Source of the DNA: Bacteroidota bacterium
Lineage (GTDB): Bacteria; Bacteroidota; Bacteroidia; Bacteroidales; DTGW01
NCBI GenBank assembly: GCA_020049015.1
Contig: JAIFLP010000062.1
Location: 1-32,523, forward strand
Reading direction: 5' to 3'
Length of the DNA: 32,523 bases
Positions 1,458 to 11,981 of this stretch are shown one piece after another. The position numbers and the translations under genes are program-made. The first letter of the stretch is position 1. Every line of letters begins with the position of its first letter. The notes under the pieces were generated by a model, which worked only from the letters and a program-made list of their open reading frames with translations, did no database searches and was not told where the DNA came from.

Positions 1458-4124
1458 TTATTTGCTTAAATAAATCAAAAATTTATTTGCCAAATATTTA
1501 AAACCTGAGGTACGACTTACTTCATTGTGTGGGATTAGCAAGTATTTCCATGCTTTGCCTTCGTTTTGTAAGGTGTACTCGGTTGCGTGTTTGCAATAGC
1601 GAACGGCAGCTTCTTTTTTGGCAACAACGCTTTGTTCTTCGGTTTGGTCGGAACGTTTTACTTCAATCATGTATATGGTTGAGGGGGTTTCGACTACAAA
1701 ATCGGGTTCGTAGCGTTTTGAGTTGTTGTCCCAATAAATACGGAACTGGTTAGGTGCCGGACGCATCCACTTTAATACGTCTTTATCGTTGTCTAAAACA
1801 AACGAAAGGTCTTGTTCGGCTTTGCTGTCAAATTTATAATCGAAGTGACAGGCTTTCTCAAAACCTCTGAAAACGTATTTAGGTATGTTTTTTGTCGGGT
1901 TTATAATATCCCGATAATCTCGATAACCTTTATTGACTAATGCTGAAAAACTCCATTGCTCGATACGCACAAAGGGGAATACCTTTGGGTCAATATATTC
2001 GGGTGTTGAAAGAACAAAATGTTCTTTCATTTGCGTGTAAATCTTTTCGGCAATAGCTGTTTTGAATTGATAAACCGTAAGGTTTAGTTCTTTGTCGTTG
2101 GGTATATTGTTTTTGAGGGCTTCGAAAGCTTGTGAAGCCAATTGATATAAAAGGTCTGAATTGTCGTCGTAATCTATTTCGGGATAGTTGATAAGCTCGG
2201 CAATGATTAATTTAACTGGATTGCCATACGAACCGCTGGCTTTGGCTTTGAGGGTTTCGACATTGCGACCGTCACGTAAATCCATACGGATAATTTCCTG
2301 CTCTAATGCTGTATAATTGATGCCTGAAATATCTAAAGTGAATGAATTAAACGAAGCGATAACGTCGCCTTGAACCAAGTCCATACGTGGAATTTCGATG
2401 ATATTGTTTTTGTATTCCGTAACCATTTTCTCGTAAATGGCTTCGGCTTCTTCTACAATTTGTTTTGCAAACATATTGAGCTGACCTGTATTTAAGTTTT
2501 GCTCAACCTGACGGATAACCTTACGTTTTACTTCTTCTTTGTTTAAATCTTCAACTTTGCGAACGCCCTGCATGGTATTAAAATCGGGCAATACATTTAT
2601 GATTGCTTTTTTTGCATCTAATGTATTTTGCGCCTTCTGCTTCTTTTCGGGTTCTGCAATTTTGTGAATTTCCTTTTGCTCGTCCTCAAATTTGGTTTGA
2701 ATGGATTCTTTGGCAACCACCACTTCTGTTTTTTCTTTTAAATCGGTTTCATCGATTTCGATGAAACTCATTTTGTTCAGTACTGAATTTGGGTCTTTCG
2801 CTGCGTGAGCAACAATGGTAAGTTTATCAATTTTATCGTCGCCGGTACGTTTGCCCTCGTAAGGTAAGCGTAAACCACGACCAATGGTTTGCTCGACCAA
2901 AATACTGGCATTGGCTGCACGAAGTGGAACAATGGTATAAAGATTGGTTACGTCCCAACCTTCTTTTAGCATGTTTACGTGTATTACAATTTCAATTTTA
3001 TTATCGGGATGCTCTAAACTAAGGAATTGCGGAGCAATGAAATCGTCGTTTTTGGTTGATGAATCGATTTGCAGAGCTTTATCTTTGTATTGACCTTCGA
3101 AGAAATCGTCGGAATTTACAAGCTCGTGTATTTCGTTGGCGTGGCTAATGTCTTTACAAACCACTAAAATGAATGGTTTTACCAGTTTTATATTGTTGTT
3201 GGCTGCGTATATTTCGAGTTCATTTTTGGTGTCCTGATGAATACTGATTGCATCTTCGAGTTTGATAATTTCAATTTCCCGTTCGGACATTCCTTTGGAA
3301 TTGAAATTTTTGCGTGTAGCAATTGCAGGACTTTTTACATATTTTTTATCGTCCAAAGCCTGTGCCAAGGAGTATTCGTACACCACGTTGCGGAACGCAA
3401 CGCCATCCTGACCAATAGGGGTTGCGGTAAGTTCTAAGCCAAGAACGGGCTTTAGCTCGTTTATGGCGTTTTTACTGGCATCGCCGTGGTAACGGTGTGC
3501 CTCGTCCATAAGAATTACCAAGTCGTCGAGTTTAGAAAGATATTCCCAATAGCTTTGTCCTAAATATTCTGATAGTCTTTTTATTTTAGGGGCTTTGCCT
3601 TTTTCTGCTCCACGGTTTGCCTCGGTGGTATCACGATTGAACTTTTGGATATTGAATATATTGATACGGATTTCCTGCTCGCTGAAAAGGCGACCTTGTT
3701 GTGCATAATTTTCGCCAGTAATAATGCGGGGTTGATTGTGTACAAACTCGGCAATACCATTGAACACATATTTGTAATAGGCAGGATTGCCAAAGTCTTC
3801 AATTAATTTTTCGTAGATGGTGCTGCCCGGAGCAAGGATAAAAAAGTTGCGTATGCCTTTTTGCAAATACAAATAGGTAATAAAAGCACCCATTAACCTT
3901 GTTTTACCTACCCCCGTAGCTATTGAAAAAGCAAGCGAAGGAAATTCACGCTCGAAATCGGTGCAGGTAGGAAATTTTTCTTTAACCTTTTGCAGTTCGG
4001 CAATCAAATCGACTTCTTTATTCAAGCTAAGTGTGTCGGATAGTTGTGCCACAATATCGAGCGAATCCTGCAAGGGTTCGCGGAGCGAAAGGCGTTGTTT
4101 AATGGAGTTGGCAGTATTATTCAT
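1458..4124 (-). CDS. Type III restriction Res-like DEAD/DEAH helicase with C-terminal PD-(D/E)xK nuclease
   Basis: Walker A 'ATGVGKTR', 'DEAH' box, 'TIGRGLRLPY', C-terminal 'YEPDFVVETPSTIYMIEVKRS' nuclease motif. Confidence 0.88.
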   Translation of the reverse strand: MNNTANSIKQRLSLREPLQDSLDIVAQLSDTLSLNKEVDLIAELQKVKEKFPTCTDFEREFPSLAFSIATGVGKTRLMGAFITYLYLQKGIRNFFILAPGSTIYEKLIEDFGNPAYYKYVFNGIAEFVHNQPRIITGENYAQQGRLFSEQEIRINIFNIQKFNRDTTEANRGAEKGKAPKIKRLSEYLGQSYWEYLSKLDDLVILMDEAHRYHGDASKNAINELKPVLGLELTATPIGQDGVAFRNVVYEYSLAQALDDKKYVKSPAIATRKNFNSKGMSEREIEIIKLEDAISIHQDTKNELEIYAANNNIKLVKPFILVVCKDISHANEIHELVNSDDFFEGQYKDKALQIDSSTKNDDFIAPQFLSLEHPDNKIEIVIHVNMLKEGWDVTNLYTIVPLRAANASILVEQTIGRGLRLPYEGKRTGDDKIDKLTIVAHAAKDPNSVLNKMSFIEIDETDLKEKTEVVVAKESIQTKFEDEQKEIHKIAEPEKKQKAQNTLDAKKAIINVLPDFNTMQGVRKVEDLNKEEVKRKVIRQVEQNLNTGQLNMFAKQIVEEAEAIYEKMVTEYKNNIIEIPRMDLVQGDVIASFNSFTLDISGINYTALEQEIIRMDLRDGRNVETLKAKASGSYGNPVKLIIAELINYPEIDYDDNSDLLYQLASQAFEALKNNIPNDKELNLTVYQFKTAIAEKIYTQMKEHFVLSTPEYIDPKVFPFVRIEQWSFSALVNKGYRDYRDIINPTKNIPKYVFRGFEKACHFDYKFDSKAEQDLSFVLDNDKDVLKWMRPAPNQFRIYWDNNSKRYEPDFVVETPSTIYMIEVKRSDQTEEQSVVAKKEAAVRYCKHATEYTLQNEGKAWKYLLIPHNEVSRTSGFKYLANKFLIYLSK

Positions 4125-4734
4125 TTACGCTAAGCTTTATTCGTTTTGATGTAATAATTTTTGCTGAGTTACAACCTTTAATTCTAATCTTCTTTGTAAC
4201 AATTAAATTTTCAATACTCCATTCCTCTTTCACAAAAGAGAATAATGTGCTATTAAAATCGGACACAAGATTTGGAAATGAAATAATTGCATACACTAAT
4301 TGTTCCTTATCAATTATGTTTTTCTCTCTGAAATATTCTACTGTTGAAATAATTTGAGAAACCATTTTTTCGGGATAATTCAAGTCATCACGTATTCTGA
4401 ATGCAGCAGCTTCATTATTTGCATATTTGGTTTCAATTGTTAAAACCCAACTTTTACTATCAAATTCCGATGGAAAAGAAATGCATTCGCATTGACTTGC
4501 CTGTGAACCACGAGAAATCGGAAGTGCATTTTCTCCAAATGTATCTATCAAAATAGTTAATTCGTTTGCATTGTAAAGGCAAACACTATTTATTTCATTT
4601 TGCTTTATATTAAATATATCAACACCTTTAGTTTTGTCAATATCTTTCCAGTCAACAATGTGTATTTCAGGATAATTAACTTCTTGAAAAGTATGCTTTT
4701 CATTAGGAAGAGTTGCAAGAATTTTATCCTTCAT
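4117..4734 (-). CDS. Unknown 205-aa protein coupled to the AAA ATPase; possible PD-(D/E)xK-like fold
   Basis: ORF overlaps upstream ATPase by 11 nt and downstream res by 8 nt; contains 'FDSKSWVLTIETKYA' (D...ExK-like). Family not recognised. Confidence 0.75.
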   Translation of the reverse strand: MKDKILATLPNEKHTFQEVNYPEIHIVDWKDIDKTKGVDIFNIKQNEINSVCLYNANELTILIDTFGENALPISRGSQASQCECISFPSEFDSKSWVLTIETKYANNEAAAFRIRDDLNYPEKMVSQIISTVEYFREKNIIDKEQLVYAIISFPNLVSDFNSTLFSFVKEEWSIENLIVTKKIRIKGCNSAKIITSKRIKLSVNE

Positions 4735-5992
4735 TGTTGCCTATTTTTAGATATGTCAACAAATCATAATACTCTTCCATAACATCATTCATAATACCAT
4801 TGAAGTAATGTTTACTAATAGTGCCGGTATCGTTATTTTTTATTTGACGTATGGTGCCTTTTCCATATTGAATTTCCCAAACAGAAACTAATTCAGGGTT
4901 AATCCATGAATATTTGCTTTGTAGTTCGTTTTGAACTTCTTTTGGAATATTATCTTTCACCAAACCACCCATCATGCAGTTATTTAAGGCATAAAGAACA
5001 TAAGGACTATGTGTAGTTATAATCAGCGTATGATTTCTATCTTTATCTGTTACCTTTTCCAACAGGTGATAGATTAATTCTTTTTGGGTTTCAGGGAATA
5101 GGTTTTGTTCAGGTTCTTCAATAATTACATTAGAAAAATGATAGTCAGTAGATAAGCCTATTTTGTTCCATATTTTTTCTTTTGTTTCTTCAAGTAATTT
5201 AGCATTAGAAGAATCCTCAGACTTATGTTGAAATTTTTGAGTTTTTAACATCCAGTCATAATCTGCATGCATACTTTCCGGTAATAATTCTCTAATGTAC
5301 TTTTCTTCAGCTGGGGAAGTGAATTTTTTTTGCAAATACAAGGCATTAAACATATATTCAGAAACAACAAGTAGCGGAATAATTGATTGTTGACCACTAG
5401 AAGACCGTTGTAATAATATCTTTTTCTTGTTTACTAATGTTAAAATATCCGACTTGGACTGACTATCATATTTGTAAGTTACGTCAATCGATTTCAATGG
5501 ACTAGGATATTCTTTATCTTTTGTAAGAGTTTCTTTGAAAGACATCCAATCTGTCAGAAAATTTATAATATTGTCGTAGCTATCACTGTACTTTTGTAAA
5601 TTGGGTATAGCCGCAGCAAAATTTCTTTCGGCTGGTATATACTCAATTTTTAAATTTTTGTACCTACTTGCATTTGCTTTAGGCATAATACTAGCTTCCC
5701 TCAAAATGCCTTTTACTTTGAAACTAATTTTCGTCCATTCACTTTCGTAGGTTATTTCCGATTTATCGGAAAAATACTCTTCATCCATCCTGTGGAATTT
5801 AAGTAAACCACTATAAAAATCGTATTCGCCACCGGTTAGAAGGTAATTTTTCTCGTACCAGCTACATTGGCTGCAAATTTTTGCAATGGTACTTTTACCA
5901 CTACTTTGAGGGCCCATGAATACATTGATTTTATTCAAATCGAATGTTGCTTCGGTTATTGGACCAATATTTTTAATTGTTAAACTTGCCAT
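4724..5992 (-). CDS. ABC-type AAA ATPase (AAA_21/OLD-like ATPase domain, no evident TOPRIM)
   Basis: Walker A 'GPQSSGKST', signature 'SSSGQQS', Walker B 'VIIEEPEQNLFPETQ', H-loop 'ITTHSPYVL'. Confidence 0.88.
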   Translation of the reverse strand: MASLTIKNIGPITEATFDLNKINVFMGPQSSGKSTIAKICSQCSWYEKNYLLTGGEYDFYSGLLKFHRMDEEYFSDKSEITYESEWTKISFKVKGILREASIMPKANASRYKNLKIEYIPAERNFAAAIPNLQKYSDSYDNIINFLTDWMSFKETLTKDKEYPSPLKSIDVTYKYDSQSKSDILTLVNKKKILLQRSSSGQQSIIPLLVVSEYMFNALYLQKKFTSPAEEKYIRELLPESMHADYDWMLKTQKFQHKSEDSSNAKLLEETKEKIWNKIGLSTDYHFSNVIIEEPEQNLFPETQKELIYHLLEKVTDKDRNHTLIITTHSPYVLYALNNCMMGGLVKDNIPKEVQNELQSKYSWINPELVSVWEIQYGKGTIRQIKNNDTGTISKHYFNGIMNDVMEEYYDLLTYLKIGNNEG

Positions 5993-6003: not shown

Positions 6004-7650
6004 TTAGAATAATGTTCCTTGAATGTTCTTATTGTCATTTATTTCCTGAACAGATATTTCAATATCCTCCGGTTCAATTTCTTCTGTTTCATCAACAGGC
6101 ATATTTACAATATTGAGGCTGTAATCTTCTTTACCAAATTCGCACCTGCCCAGCAGCATTTGAGGTATTTTTTTGATGGTTATATTGCTGTATTTGCCCT
6201 TACACTCGTTTTGAAAACTCTTGCAACAAATAAGCAAACTTTCGCCCGGTTGCATTTCTTCCTGTATTTGGTCGAGGCTTTCAACGGTAATAAATTGTGT
6301 GGTGGTATAAATAAAATCTTGCCCGCTGCTGGTACCCTGTTTCCAATACAAACTATCGTGGGGTTGGTATTTAAAACCTTCTTGCTTTGCCATTGCGGCG
6401 GCTAACATGGTGGGGTTGTATTGGCTATCAATTACCCAATTGCCGTATTTGTCTTTTTGTAACATGCTTGGGGCAAGGGTGTAAAACTTGAAGCCACCAC
6501 CGCCTTGCCAATCAACAGCTTTACTAATGCCGCCTTGCTCACCATCAACCACTTGTTTTAAGCGTGGAAAACAGTGTGTTTTTGCATGTTCTCCCAATTC
6601 AATTCCAATCCACCTGCGACCCATTTTGTGAGCAACTGCTGAGGTAGTTCCTGAACCGAGGAATGAATCGAGGACGAGGTCGCCAGAGTTTGAAGCAATT
6701 GTTAATACTCTTTCAATTAATCGCTCTGGCTTTGGGGTTTCAAAAGCATTTTCATTACCGAAGAGCTTATTAACTTCTTTTTTAGCCTCTTGATTATGTC
6801 CAACTTCACTATTCGGCCACCAAGTCCAAGCTGAAATTCCATTTATTTCACTTAGGTAAGTCTTTTTTCGAGGAACGGAATCACCATTTATTCCAAACCA
6901 AATTTTACCTTCTTTTTGTAATTCTAAAAATACTGGTTCAATATTTCGCCAGCAGGAACCAGCTCGTGGAGAATATTTTTTCCCTGAAGGTGTTGTTATT
7001 TCATACATTTGATTAGGTCTAAAACCTTTTGCCATGTAATCAGCCGAAACCCAAGGACCATTTGCATCATTGTCTGGGTTACTATATCTTTCTAATTGAT
7101 TATTAGATGATGGCAACATATTTAATTCCTTTTTGAAATCTTCAATACATTTTGCATAAACTAATATATGGTCATGTCCTGCACCTATTGTGGCTCTCAT
7201 ATCAGGTTGAATCCTTTTTTGCCATACAACGTTTGCAACAAAGTTTATTCTTCCAAAAATCTCATCACACATTACTTTGCAATAGTGAACCTCATTGTCG
7301 TCTAATGTAACCCAAATACTTCCATCATTTTTAAGAAGTGTTCGTAGTAATTCAAGTCTTGGTCTAATTAAATTCAACCAAAGCGAATGTTCTACGCCAT
7401 CATCATAATGTTCGAATGCATTGCCCGTATTGTAAGGCGGGTCAATATAAATACACTTTACTTTTCCTGCATAGTCTTGTTCGAGGGCTTTAAGTGCAAG
7501 TAGGTTGTCGCCATGTATGAGCATGTTTTCGCTCTTGGGGTCGCCGTAACTATATTCGGGATTCTCGATAAGGATACGTGGTTCGAGCTTTGGTTCATCG
7601 CCTTTGCCAATCCACGTAAGTTCGAGTTTTTGTAGTTTATTTTGAGACAT
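6004..7650 (-). CDS. Site-specific DNA N6-adenine methyltransferase, type III Mod-like (beta class)
   Basis: 'DPPYNTGNAFEHYDD' motif IV followed downstream by 'DLVLDSFLGSGTTSAVAHKMGRRWIGIEL' motif I. Confidence 0.9.
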   Translation of the reverse strand: MSQNKLQKLELTWIGKGDEPKLEPRILIENPEYSYGDPKSENMLIHGDNLLALKALEQDYAGKVKCIYIDPPYNTGNAFEHYDDGVEHSLWLNLIRPRLELLRTLLKNDGSIWVTLDDNEVHYCKVMCDEIFGRINFVANVVWQKRIQPDMRATIGAGHDHILVYAKCIEDFKKELNMLPSSNNQLERYSNPDNDANGPWVSADYMAKGFRPNQMYEITTPSGKKYSPRAGSCWRNIEPVFLELQKEGKIWFGINGDSVPRKKTYLSEINGISAWTWWPNSEVGHNQEAKKEVNKLFGNENAFETPKPERLIERVLTIASNSGDLVLDSFLGSGTTSAVAHKMGRRWIGIELGEHAKTHCFPRLKQVVDGEQGGISKAVDWQGGGGFKFYTLAPSMLQKDKYGNWVIDSQYNPTMLAAAMAKQEGFKYQPHDSLYWKQGTSSGQDFIYTTTQFITVESLDQIQEEMQPGESLLICCKSFQNECKGKYSNITIKKIPQMLLGRCEFGKEDYSLNIVNMPVDETEEIEPEDIEISVQEINDNKNIQGTLF

Positions 7651-7661
7651 ATATATTTAGC

Positions 7662-8567
7662 TTATTTTAGCCATAATGGCTGGTTTTGCCAGTTGTTTTT
7701 CAGGCCTAATGCTTTTGGGTCAACACTTGGGAACTTTGCCAATAAATTAACTAAATTGGTTTTGAAATTATTACTGGGTTGTATAGTGTCTAAAAGATAT
7801 TTTAAACAGCACAGATGAATATATAAAAATTGGAAATCGCTTTCAGTTATAACATCGGAAATCCATGGATTTGGAGGATTGGGCAATAATTTGGGTCTTC
7901 CTGGTAAGTTTTTGTTCCAAATACGGCTGTGGTGGGCGCAATAATTGCGAATTTGAGCTATAGATTGTAGCCAGCTTGGTAAAAAAGTATGGTTTGCTGT
8001 ACCATATTCCTTAGCAATGATATCTTTCGATTTTATGTTGTTTTTTAAATTGCCATAAAGTTTTGATAAACTTCCAAAACTTGTTAATTCAAGGGTTTTC
8101 CATGCCGGAGGAAATCTCAAATCATCTTTGTGTTTTTTCTTGTGTTCTTTTATAAACGCATCTTTGGATCTTTCAATTTCAAGGTCAATAGATGCTAATG
8201 TTTTAATAATTTCGCTAGAATTAATAAATAAATCAATGTTTTGAAACCACCAAGGGCCAAACTCGTGCGAAAGGTGATAAATTAGTTTCGTTCTTAGACT
8301 AATTTCTATTTTTTCAATTGCATCAAAAATTAGAATTCGCAATTCTCTATCGAAATTATATAAAGCAATAACATCTTTAAAACGGCTATTGGGTTTAAAT
8401 TGATGCGCATCTTTATCCGCCTGCATTGGCCACCAATAACCAGCAAGGCGATAATAACTAATATGCGACAAATAATGCTCAGCATTATCGCTTTCTTCAA
8501 TAGCCAAACCTCTTTCTTTAAGTTTAACTATTTGTTCCTGAATACTTGATGCCTTTTTTTCAAACAT
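7662..8567 (-). CDS. Abi_2/AbiD-AbiF family abortive infection protein with HEPN RNase motif
   Basis: 'HYLSHISYYRLAGYWWP...FDRELRILIFDAIEKIEISLRTKLIYHLS...SIAQIRNYCAHHSRIWN'; RNYCAHH (7929-7949) is the Rx4-6H HEPN motif. Confidence 0.88.
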   Translation of the reverse strand: MFEKKASSIQEQIVKLKERGLAIEESDNAEHYLSHISYYRLAGYWWPMQADKDAHQFKPNSRFKDVIALYNFDRELRILIFDAIEKIEISLRTKLIYHLSHEFGPWWFQNIDLFINSSEIIKTLASIDLEIERSKDAFIKEHKKKHKDDLRFPPAWKTLELTSFGSLSKLYGNLKNNIKSKDIIAKEYGTANHTFLPSWLQSIAQIRNYCAHHSRIWNKNLPGRPKLLPNPPNPWISDVITESDFQFLYIHLCCLKYLLDTIQPSNNFKTNLVNLLAKFPSVDPKALGLKNNWQNQPLWLK

Positions 8568-8586
8568 AGTAAAGATGAAAATTATG

Positions 8587-8627
8587 TAAAAAAATACCCG
8601 CTGGCAAATTTATGCCAATCGGGTATT
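8587..8627 (-). terminator. Intrinsic terminator between ncRNA candidate and abi gene
   Basis: Minus strand AATACCCG-AT-TGGCA-taaatt-TGCCA-G-CGGGTATT followed by a T run. Confidence 0.8.
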
Positions 8628-8755
8628 TGTATAATAAAATAGGGTTGCTAAGTGTGCATTAAAAAAAGGCAAAGCAACCACGTTATGACAAGCTATAAAA
8701 GCAAAAGACACACCCTGGGACGCTGTTCTTAAGGGTAGCGTGGTGTGTACTGTTA
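8588..8755 (-). ncRNA. Candidate structured small RNA upstream of the Abi_2/HEPN gene (AbiF-associated RNA-like)
   Basis: Bounded by Bacteroidota-type promoter and intrinsic terminator. Stem 8708-8714/8742-8748 (ACACACC/GGTGTGT) continues into 8720-8724/8737-8741 (ACGCT/AGCGT); second stem 8643-8649/8673-8679 (GGTTGCT/AGCAACC). Confidence 0.65.
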
Positions 8756-8758
8756 CTG

Positions 8759-8788
8759 CAAACATACTACAAAATTTTAAAATTGCAA
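8759..8788 (-). promoter_or_regulatory. Bacteroidota-type promoter for ncRNA candidate
   Basis: Minus strand TTG (8788-8786), 19-nt spacer, TATGTTTG (8766-8759), matching TTTG / TAnnTTTG. Confidence 0.65.
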
Positions 8789-8855
8789 CATTTTTACTAT
8801 AAAAAAAAACAAACAAGGACCTCGAAATTTCATTAAACCCTATTGGCATGAGTAT

Positions 8856-9068
8856 CGTTTTGTTGACATCAATAAAATGATTAGAAACCTCGTCACCACT
8901 GGTTTTACAGCTTTCTTGAGCCTTATTTATGGCATTTAAATAATTACACCATTTGGTATATCCTAAAAGTTCTTGCAATTCTCTAGTAAGCCAATATTCA
9001 ATGCCATCTTGTTCGTAAGAGTATTTTTCAAATTGTTTATTGAGTTTGGTAATCGTGTTCTTTTCCAT
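8856..9068 (-). pseudogene. Truncated DinD-like protein (N-terminal ~71 codons)
   Basis: 'FEKYSYEQDGIEYWLTRELQELLGYTKWCNYLNAINKAQESCKTSGDEVSNHFIDVNK' is DinD-like; the rest of the 152-aa ORF runs into the promoter/ncRNA/terminator region. Confidence 0.75.
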
Positions 9069-9071
9069 ACC

Positions 9072-11981
9072 TTATATCAATTTCCATTTAATTGTAAATA
9101 AATCTGTTGCCTTAATGCTTTGTTTTAAACGTCGTTCAACTTCGGTTAGGAGTTCCTCTTTGCGTTCGTCGATAGTGTCTTGTGCTTCGAATAGATTTTG
9201 ACGTTTTTCGCTACGTTTCTTTTCGAGGTCTTTGATGGCACGTTGTGCTTTTATCTTGGCTTCGAGGTTAAGCATTTTCTTAGCTTCCGATTTGCGAAGC
9301 TTAATTTCGGCATCGAGGTCTTTAATTTCTTTATCGAGGCTTATTTTCATGTCATCAGCCCATTGGTCGAGCTTATCCATTTCGGTATCGAAAAAATCTT
9401 TATTGCGATTTGAATTTTCGTCAATAACAGCCTGTTTTTCGGAGAAAAGAATTTCTTCGAGTTTTTTCTTTGTATCAGAAGTGACATTGCAAGTTCCGTT
9501 TTCAGTAGCAATAAGCGAAAACATACGATGCGCCAGTTCATTTTCAACTATAGTACCATCGTCGGTAAAACAGGCAGCAATGAGGTAATCTTCATATTCG
9601 AATGAATTAATTTCGAGGTGGCTCAATTGCAACCAACCAGATTGCCCTGTATATGGCTTTAAAGCCGAAATTAAAACAGGGGAATTTGTTAAATCAAAAG
9701 CAAGTTCATTGCAAGGCGTTTTAATAGCCTTGCAGGCTTCTAATATGCGTTTTGCAAGTTTATGACCAACTCGGTATATATTGGTGTCGTCGGGAACATG
9801 AACGTCAGATTTTCGTTGCCCTTCCTGTGGCTTAAGAATCATATAAGGGCCTTTGTGGATGTTTTCGCCAGAGAATGGATTCCTCTCTAATACAAAAGAA
9901 AAGTTATTATCATTAAACTGTGCCGAATTATTTAGGTAGAACTTTGTAGTAGCCCATAATCGTTCTTCGAAACGATTAAGATATTCTTTACTGGCACGAA
10001 GGTTGGTGCGGAGTTTGTCTTTTACTTCTTCATCGAAATTTTCGATAAGCATTTTTCGGGTTTCATGAACTTTTTCCGAAATATTAGCTTTAAGTTCTTC
10101 TTGAAGTAAATTAAAAGCTTTTTCGATTTCATTGGTATTGCGGCAACTGTTGTATATTTCGGCAATGCGTTTTTCGAAATCAACACCATTGCCAATGCTA
10201 CCTAATACTTCATCAGAAGCCCCAAACACGCCATCGAAAAGTTTAAACTTTTCGGCAAGTAACTCATATACACGCTGGTCGGCAGCATTTTTTTTGTTGA
10301 GAAAATTGAAAACAACCACGTCGAATTTTTGACCGTAACGATGACAGCGACCAATGCGTTGTTCGATACGCTGCGGATTCCATGGTAAATCGAAGTTTAC
10401 AATTAAAGAACAGAATTGCAAATTGATACCTTCGGCAGCAGCTTCGGTTGCAATCATAATTGTTGCTTCGTTCTTAAAATATTCTACAATTGCAGCACGT
10501 TTATCTGCAGTAGCAGAACCGGAAAGTACGTCAGTATCTTTATGTTTTTTGCAATAAGCTTTGTGAATTTCGTTTGATTTCGGGTCGTTATTGACACCAT
10601 TAAAACAAACAACTTTGCCCCGATAACCTCTTGATTCGAGAAGATTATAAATAAAATCCTGCGTACGACGAGATTCTGTAAATATTAAAGCCTTTTGATT
10701 GGCTGCAAGTTTGTGCAATTCTGAAAACCCTCTTTCTAAGGCAGTAAAAAGTTTTTCGGCTTTATCGTTTTTCCTGATTTTATGTGCTAGATCACGAAAA
10801 CGTTCTAAATCAGCTTTTTCTTCTTTTATTAACTCAATTTCCTCATCGGTATATTCAATTTCTTCTTCAATACTTTCGGGTCCTTCATCTTCATTAGCCC
10901 ACTCGTCAACCACTTCTTCGAAAGTTTCAAAATCGAGAGCCAAATCTTCGGTTGTTGGCACTATGTGCTTTTCTATAATAGCATCCAGTTTTTTTACCAA
11001 TGCATCCAAAGTGCCATAAATAGCATAAGTAGATGAAGCCAATAATTTACGAAGAATTAAAGTCATTAACTGGCGCTGGCTCGATGGCAAAGCAAAAAGT
11101 TTATCCTGTTGCAAATAATCAGAAACCCATTTGTACAATGTCATTTCATCCTCACCGGGAAAATATTCTTCGACCAAAGGAACGCGCTTGGTGTATTTAA
11201 TATATTCCAGTACCTGACGGCGAAGGGTTCGTTTACAAACTGGCTGTAAACGGTTTCTTAAGTCAGTGAAATTTTCTTCTTCAACCAATCGGCTGAATTG
11301 GCTTTTAAAACTTTTTAAATCGCCAAAAACATAAGGGTCTATAAGACTTACCAAACCGTATAATTCGAGAATAGAATTTTGAAGTGGGGTAGCAGTTAAT
11401 AATACTTTTTTATAATCCTCTAAAGAATTTTTTATGGCATTGCCCATTTTGTTGGTAGGCTTATACACATTTCGAAGCCTATGAGCTTCATCAATGATAA
11501 CCAAATCCCAATTTGTGTTTTTTAAGTAGGCTGCTTTTGTACTGGCAAACTGAAAAGAGCAAATTACAATATTATCTTTTTGATTGAACGGATTTAAATT
11601 GCCTTCTTTAATGATATTGTTAAATGACTTTGATTCTAAAATAAAAGAAGGCAAGTAAAACTTATCAGCCAATTCACTATTCCATTGTTTTCGAAGGTTC
11701 GATGGGCAAATAATTATAAGTTTTCTTTTGCGTTCTGCCCATTGCTGAGAAAGAATAATACCAGCTTCGATGGTTTTACCCAATCCTACTTCATCTGCTA
11801 AAACTGCACCTTTGGAAAGTGGCGATTTAAAAGCAAATAAAGCAGCTTCGACCTGATGAGGGTTTAAATCTACCTGCGCATCCTGCAAGGATGCGGTAAG
11901 CTTACCAACGTCATTTGCAGGTAATTGCCTTGTTAGTTCATAGGCATAAAATTTTGCATGGTAGGATGTTATTTCTCTCAC
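9072..11981 (-). CDS. SNF2-family DEAD/DEAH helicase with C-terminal coiled-coil region
   Basis: 'LADEVGLGKTIEAGIILSQ', 'DEAH', 'LLTATPLQNSILELYGL', 'ATEAAAEGINLQFCSLIVNFDLPWNPQRIEQRIGRCHRYGQ'. Confidence 0.9.
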   Translation of the reverse strand: MREITSYHAKFYAYELTRQLPANDVGKLTASLQDAQVDLNPHQVEAALFAFKSPLSKGAVLADEVGLGKTIEAGIILSQQWAERKRKLIIICPSNLRKQWNSELADKFYLPSFILESKSFNNIIKEGNLNPFNQKDNIVICSFQFASTKAAYLKNTNWDLVIIDEAHRLRNVYKPTNKMGNAIKNSLEDYKKVLLTATPLQNSILELYGLVSLIDPYVFGDLKSFKSQFSRLVEEENFTDLRNRLQPVCKRTLRRQVLEYIKYTKRVPLVEEYFPGEDEMTLYKWVSDYLQQDKLFALPSSQRQLMTLILRKLLASSTYAIYGTLDALVKKLDAIIEKHIVPTTEDLALDFETFEEVVDEWANEDEGPESIEEEIEYTDEEIELIKEEKADLERFRDLAHKIRKNDKAEKLFTALERGFSELHKLAANQKALIFTESRRTQDFIYNLLESRGYRGKVVCFNGVNNDPKSNEIHKAYCKKHKDTDVLSGSATADKRAAIVEYFKNEATIMIATEAAAEGINLQFCSLIVNFDLPWNPQRIEQRIGRCHRYGQKFDVVVFNFLNKKNAADQRVYELLAEKFKLFDGVFGASDEVLGSIGNGVDFEKRIAEIYNSCRNTNEIEKAFNLLQEELKANISEKVHETRKMLIENFDEEVKDKLRTNLRASKEYLNRFEERLWATTKFYLNNSAQFNDNNFSFVLERNPFSGENIHKGPYMILKPQEGQRKSDVHVPDDTNIYRVGHKLAKRILEACKAIKTPCNELAFDLTNSPVLISALKPYTGQSGWLQLSHLEINSFEYEDYLIAACFTDDGTIVENELAHRMFSLIATENGTCNVTSDTKKKLEEILFSEKQAVIDENSNRNKDFFDTEMDKLDQWADDMKISLDKEIKDLDAEIKLRKSEAKKMLNLEAKIKAQRAIKDLEKKRSEKRQNLFEAQDTIDERKEELLTEVERRLKQSIKATDLFTIKWKLI

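Follow-up and report, generated by a model that had tools for sequence, protein, structure and literature searches.

Does the small RNA encoded directly in front of a predicted RNase gene serve as that enzyme's antitoxin? The question arises in a 32,523-nucleotide (nt) stretch of a Bacteroidota genome (contig JAIFLP010000062.1; the whole stretch is called the window below), where positions 8788 to 7662 of the minus strand carry, in this order, a promoter, a structured RNA, a strong terminator, 19 nt and the gene of a 301-residue Abi_2 protein. An RNA, a terminator and an endoRNase gene under one promoter form a layout that can be read in the sequence alone, and the original prediction had proposed it as a candidate RNA-antitoxin/HEPN-toxin module of the AbiF type. 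This claim is supported by the sequence match of the protein to a solved AbiF, by a gene order identical to that of the characterised RCd22/AbiF pair and by the covariation of the RNA. We consider it highly probable that the locus is an AbiF-type RNA-antitoxin/HEPN-RNase module, which a type III restriction operon carries as exchangeable cargo.

The Abi_2 gene and its covarying upstream RNA

The protein had been claimed as an Abi_2 member with the HEPN motif RNYCAHH, and both parts of the claim hold. It matches the PF07751 profile at 196.7 bits against a cut-off of 25.6 (E = 5.5e-58) and PADLOC AbiD at E = 2e-77, and RNYCAHH fits the R-polar-xxx-H pattern of HEPN RNases, its R, N, H and H being invariant in 103/103 sequences. 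Its sole match in the PDB is the Abi family protein 8vz6 (E = 6.6e-62), which is PbAbiF solved together with noncoding RNA (PMC12737573, PMC12373285). RNase activity and toxicity are known for AbiF relatives (PMC12373285, PMC12737573), and the toxicity of the Clostridioides difficile AbiF requires R202 and H207 (PMC12373285).

Scanning of GTDB genomes with the Abi_2 protein yielded 76 loci. The 230 nt 5' of the start codons share a roughly 52-nt motif, AACAGUAC-N-CNCC-A-CGCU-ACCCNNNAGAAC-AGCG-UCCCAG-GGNGNGUCUUUU, which is found 5' of abi_2 in 51/51 loci, namely the window and 50 Abi_2 relatives. Pairing played no part in choosing the aligned RNA sequences, which were selected by the protein and with a permissive sequence pattern; 98.2% of the cells are paired and 33 are double-changed, versus 10.7 in shuffles, a covariation equalled by 0/500 shuffles. 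When the partner is slid by one column, pairing falls to about 25%. Column 9 of the outer stem, for example, changes together with its partner column, the pair being UA, AU, UG, GC or CG. The upstream regions of Abi_2 homologues, to which the original prediction had pointed for covariation, thus do hold a covarying RNA. With a covariance model made from the window-type RNA (R1), the motif of the window scores 81.0 bits. The RNA classes, A (that of the window), B, C and Rfam-type, track the AbiF protein tree with 11 changes against a shuffled mean of 34, and class A alone with 3 against 25.6, as expected for toxin-antitoxin partners.

The elements around the motif are as they had been described. 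The promoter was found with its TTG, 19-nt spacer and TATGTTTG in place; its TTTG box ends exactly 4 nt 5' of the RNA motif in 40 of the 51 loci, and the full TAnnTTTG box is present in 35. A generic sigma-70 scan does not list a promoter at 8788-8759, as expected, because it is of the Bacteroidota type. The 180 nt from 8760 fold at -49.7 kcal/mol, against -34.2 +/- 3.3 in shuffles (z -4.8, 0/200), and the claimed long-range stems, at least two, correspond to the conserved motif and to a hairpin at 8684-8637. The terminator is strong, as claimed (-21.5 kcal/mol for the hairpin alone, z -6.5), and its distance to the start codon, put at about 20 nt, is 19 nt; a terminator-like hairpin with a T run occurs in 18/51 loci. 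A further claim, that the open reading frame called at 9068..8610 hides the RNA, stood for the part beyond 77 codons, which is RNA read as protein (the apparent homologues of the translation past that codon are the RNA itself), but not for the first 77 codons, which are genuine DinD.

How such a module works is known from RCd22/AbiF of the C. difficile prophage phi027, which has the same order of promoter, RNA, terminator and toxin gene as the window, and whose RNA neutralises AbiF through direct binding (PMC12373285). The RCd22 transcription start site lies 168 nt before the start codon, against about 187 nt for the predicted start in the window. The RNA of the window belongs to another sequence class, and its module is part of a restriction operon, whereas RCd22/AbiF belongs to a prophage lysis module; we know it from sequence, RCd22 from experiment. 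By analogy with the characterised relatives, the small folded RNA probably holds the toxin in check. A short transcript would start at about 8754, fold into a clear abiF-like hairpin, perhaps with a second one, and end at the terminator. Most transcripts would stop there and keep the RNA in excess, while a few would read through to give AbiF mRNA. The RNA would occupy AbiF, block its RNase site and keep it inactive. Should the RNA pool fall during infection, for instance when a phage shuts off or degrades host transcription, AbiF would be freed to cut RNA, and growth would stop.

Type III loci (ToxIN, CptIN, TenpIN) place an RNA antitoxin, a terminator and an endoRNase toxin under one promoter, a layout that the sequence of the window would match. 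Their toxin has the ToxN fold, whereas that of the window is a predicted HEPN RNase, and the ToxIN antitoxin is an array of tandem repeats, which the window RNA lacks: a tandem-repeat test found a single clear motif, with no more than one divergent copy besides. The module would therefore work like a type III system without being filed under ToxIN.

Several observations weigh against the antitoxin reading. The Rfam abiF model, RF03085, has no match in the window at its gathering threshold (37 bits) nor at E <= 10, and the part from 8684 to 8587 is without sequence conservation among relatives. The host genome is a draft of 197 contigs, 87% complete, and it contains a second abi_2 copy (contig 58, 20516-21016; locus L002) that has decayed, with in-frame stops and no R1 motif at the locus, which suggests that such genes are readily lost. 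In many relatives, moreover, only 20-40 nt separate the motif from the start codon downstream and a separate terminator is missing, which would allow the RNA to serve chiefly as a leader or attenuator. In its strict form, this alternative makes the RNA a mere cis leader of the abiF mRNA, an attenuator that keeps AbiF low and binds no protein in trans. It would account for the constant location of the RNA in the 5' region at a fixed spacing after the promoter, and the hairpin with its CUUUUGCUUUU tail in those relatives could itself terminate; RCd22 too acts in cis via premature termination (PMC12373285). However, the conserved loop and bulge letters exceed what a terminator needs, relatives bind and neutralise AbiF directly (PMC12373285), and the same RNA occurs in phage tRNA arrays free of the promoter-gene linkage as well as in bacterial genomes without Abi_2 (see below). 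We judge a role as cis leader only to be improbable.

Relation to the Rfam abiF RNA

The original prediction had left to Rfam whether this RNA belongs to the abiF family, whose motif was reportedly described by Weinberg et al. in 2017. Rfam searches of the whole window and of 8500-8900 found no relevant family, and since the RF03085 score test failed, we do not file the window RNA as an RF03085 member. The best sub-threshold match, to RF01692 (8555-8649, 36.8 bits, E 0.009), would make it a Bacteroidete trp leader; the match falls short of the gathering score (49), lies on the plus strand and covers the terminator hairpin instead of the conserved motif. That identity was rejected on account of the strand and of the coverage of the terminator hairpin, and there is next to no chance that the RNA is a trp leader or belongs to another Rfam family.

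Relatedness to RF03085 fared better than membership. RF03085 matches the equivalent position in four distant relatives (L078, L079, L080, L091), R1 reaches two of these positives (L079 at 30.7 bits, L080 at 21.9 bits), and in one genome (G266) both models pick the same place. RF03085 consists of a 6-base-pair (bp) stem, a 1-nt 5' bulge, a 3-bp stem, an 11-nt loop and a 6-nt 3' bulge; the window motif has the same helix-bulge-helix-loop layout with 7 bp, 1 nt, 4 bp, 12 nt and 6 nt. Both stand directly 5' of Abi_2, and intermediate sequences bridge them, whereas they diverge in the letters of loop and bulge (ACCCNNNAGAAC and UCCCAG in the window, CUCUCAACGAU and CAAAUC in RF03085). Given this architecture, the toxin homology to 8vz6 and the intermediate sequences, we tie the window RNA to the abiF family and take it and RF03085 to be one family with divergent letters. 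The earlier suggestion is thus to be corrected: judged by sequence and layout, the RNA forms a divergent class that is related to RF03085 without matching its model.

The hairpin at 8684-8637 may tentatively be seen as a further abiF motif, by comparison with RCd22, which has two. It has an outer stem, a 1-nt 5' bulge, a 3-bp inner stem, an 11-nt loop and a 5-nt 3' bulge, a layout that matches the Rfam abiF architecture, and it folds at z -2.1. The assignment is tentative because R1 gives it 2.8 bits. The same signature is also found 3' of the motif in L120/L163 and L231, and in genome G053 (L163) the hairpin 3' of a window-type motif scores 30.4 bits with RF03085. Tandem abiF-type RNAs before a single Abi_2 gene were seen at L074 (7855-7906 and 7933-7983), where two different RNA classes stand side by side as in RCd22, and at L025 (820-869 and 1400-1449). 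A metagenome-assembled genome of Paludibacteraceae (L091) has three RF03085 copies, at 1407, 2462 and 3440, and their spacing of about 1 kb suggests tandem AbiF units.

Of 396 genomes from the phylum, 53 have an R1 match and only 5 an RF03085 match. Rfam therefore misses most abiF-type RNAs in this phylum, and AbiF surveys based on RF03085 are incomplete. Cas13 and its guide RNA have been proposed to descend from AbiF and its RNA (PMC12373285, PMC12737573), so where these RNAs occur, and with which partners, matters for the question of how RNA-guided immunity arose.

RNAs without a toxin gene in phages and bacteria

The phage-borne orphans are a more surprising outcome than the module of the window. 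A search of IMG/VR with a pattern that fixes the core letters only retrieved 67 viral contigs (L181-L247), while the complement of that pattern, used as a control, retrieved 0. R1 gives 59 contigs a score of 47-83 bits; of these, 57 are without adjacent Abi_2, the two with Abi_2 beside the RNA being L188 and L189. Abi_2 is absent from 48/50 whole viral records searched, many of which are fragments. Although the five distal outer-stem pairs were left free by the pattern, 98.4% of the outer-stem cells of the viral orphans are paired and 42 are double-changed, against 11.8 in shuffles. Of 39 distinct viral motifs, 22 have a same-strand tRNA or its T-arm within 60 nt and 17 start no more than 10 nt from the 3' end of a tRNA. 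Many of the orphans lack the host promoter and lie instead 0-14 nt past a tRNA; in L214 the RNA stands between tRNA-Thr and tRNA-Val in an array of 19 tRNAs (further coordinates: L214 6419-6470, L183 3916-3967, L200 11849-11900). Some of the RNA-bearing contigs carry crAss-like terminase and portal genes, relatives of which infect Bacteroides, Flavobacterium and Cellulophaga, genera belonging to the phylum that yielded most class A AbiF genes.

RF03085 is likewise above threshold in four cultured phages, Acj61, CRP-143, PZL-Ah8 and S-CREM1 (Table 1), and an Abi_2 gene is absent from their whole genomes. The authors of S-CREM1 reported the abiF small RNA and three further phages in Rfam, and proposed no decoy role (PMC9964418). 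The window-type phage copies were found solely through the pattern and the covariance model; blastn of the window motif found nothing in the phages collection and one weak plasmid match. In Bacillus phage P59, a 27-nt blastn match within a tRNA array was unconfirmed by RF03085 and is not counted.

The simplest reading of the phage-borne copies, and one to which we give somewhat better than even credence, is that these toxin-less abiF-type RNAs in phages of many hosts are natural decoy antitoxins against host AbiF. A phage that brings its own copy would refill the antitoxin pool. In crAss-like and other phages, the RNA would be released by tRNA processing, since it comes right after a tRNA 3' end in the arrays; in T4-like and T7-like phages its place would be beside capsid genes, or else within tRNA arrays or close to them. 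The model for such a decoy would be the pseudo-ToxI of phage PhiTE, a phage RNA that mimics an RNA antitoxin (PMC5086642); the PhiTE mimic arose in laboratory escape mutants, whereas the phage-borne abiF RNAs are widespread, natural and often among tRNA genes. Alternatively, the copies could be relics of abiF modules once carried by phages, or have an unrelated role in the processing of tRNA arrays. Viral contigs with both RNA and Abi_2 do exist, as do bacterial RNAs beside a decayed abiF. Against this alternative, the stems of the viral orphans keep their covariation, many copies have a place next to a tRNA in lieu of the host promoter, nearly all of the whole viral records lack Abi_2, and four unrelated cultured phages retain an RF03085 RNA without it; we regard it as rather unlikely, but worth keeping in mind.

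If the decoy reading is true, it would point to a widespread RNA-based strategy against abortive infection, and phage tRNA arrays would gain a second role, carrying antitoxin mimics beyond the supply of tRNAs. The phage-borne copies make phage escape from AbiF a directly testable question. In the literature searched, which was limited, no proposal of phage decoys against AbiF was found. Lactococcal phage sk1 is reported to protect against AbiF, according to a title cited in PMC12737573; it has no RF03085 or R1 RNA, so this old result cannot be linked to a decoy RNA. Other orphan RNAs of this sort may be antitoxin mimics too. One faecal phage has a DUF3800-VIII RNA (L307 2852-2915) next to an abiF-like RNA that scores below threshold, and in Bacillus phage P59 a skipping-rope RNA (L308 1426-1495) is part of the tRNA array.

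Solitary RNAs also occur in bacterial genomes, where the scan of the 396 genomes gave about 20 R1 matches without Abi_2 within 1.5 kb downstream. Solitary abiF-like RNAs were seen at L143-L169 and L248 (genomes G053, G283, G112 and others). A PF07751 match is absent in 19/28 genomes with solitary RNAs. In L163/L248, the RNA stands beside HsdR inside an hsdM-hsdS-hsdR operon; elsewhere its neighbours are DarT, a ParE toxin, HipA-like and HTH antitoxin-like proteins, NACHT, AAA ATPases and a methyltransferase. A few, beside a decayed abiF (L165, L174), are clear relics.

The restriction operon and its cargo slot

The module lies inside a type III restriction operon (Table 1). The SNF2 helicase gene precedes it, and after Abi_2 come, in order, the type III methyltransferase (starting about 12 nt past the abiF stop), the AAA ATPase, an unknown protein and the type III restriction subunit. 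Homologous operons elsewhere share the helicase, the methyltransferase and the restriction subunit at roughly 42-70% identity, and in most of those compared (L296-L303) the interval between helicase and methyltransferase holds different genes of defence type: DUF3800, an HTH-M78 protein, AAA with AIPR, RhuM, or a Bro-N/DinD fragment with PDDEXK_3. In the window, this slot (9072-7650) holds a dinD remnant and the RNA-AbiF unit. The variation of the interval between genomes marks AbiF as one of several exchangeable cargos.

Table 1. Features of the module and its operon in the window, and abiF RNAs of cultured phages
Feature	Position	Strand	Details
Bacteroidota-type promoter	8759..8788	-	TTG 8788-8786, 19-nt spacer, TATGTTTG 8766-8759
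abiF-like RNA motif, class A, presumed antitoxin core	8703..8754	-	AACAGUACACACC A CGCU-loop-AGCG UCCCAG GGUGUGUCUUUU
Second hairpin of abiF-motif architecture, possible second abiF motif	8637..8684	-	UUGCC..AAUGCACACUUA
Intrinsic terminator between RNA and toxin gene	8587..8627	-	hairpin, then T run
AbiF/Abi_2 HEPN RNase toxin (predicted), 301 residues	7662..8567	-	RNYCAHH, residues 207-213
Truncated dinD, upstream edge of the module	8837..9068	-	NF008573 about 1-78 of 288; PADLOC PDC-S13 1-75, E 8.8e-24
SNF2 helicase (DrmD-like)	9072..11981	-	PF00176/PF00271; NF038318 E 2e-202, below its cut-off
Type III adenine methyltransferase	6004..7650	-	PF01555; PADLOC MTase_III E 3e-189
AAA ATPase, PDC-M29A-like	4724..5992	-	PADLOC E 2.8e-59
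Type III restriction subunit	1458..4124	-	PADLOC REase_III E 9e-149; PF04851
Acinetobacter phage Acj61	L304 2502-2538		RF03085 58.0 bits
Synechococcus phage S-CREM1	L269 2532-2568		RF03085 52.2 bits; between tRNA-Asn and tRNA-Gly
Roseobacter phage CRP-143	L305 2502-2539		RF03085 50.8 bits; before capsid gene
Aeromonas phage PZL-Ah8	L306 2502-2538		RF03085 50.1 bits; before capsid assembly gene

The dinD remnant, the N-terminal 77 codons of a gene whose full product has about 288 residues, lies between the helicase gene and the RNA and ends about 50 nt 5' of the promoter of the abiF RNA. The abiF module may have replaced the 3' part of dinD. A Gp49-like toxin and an HTH antitoxin on the plus strand (112-752) form a HigBA-like pair at the border of this defence region.
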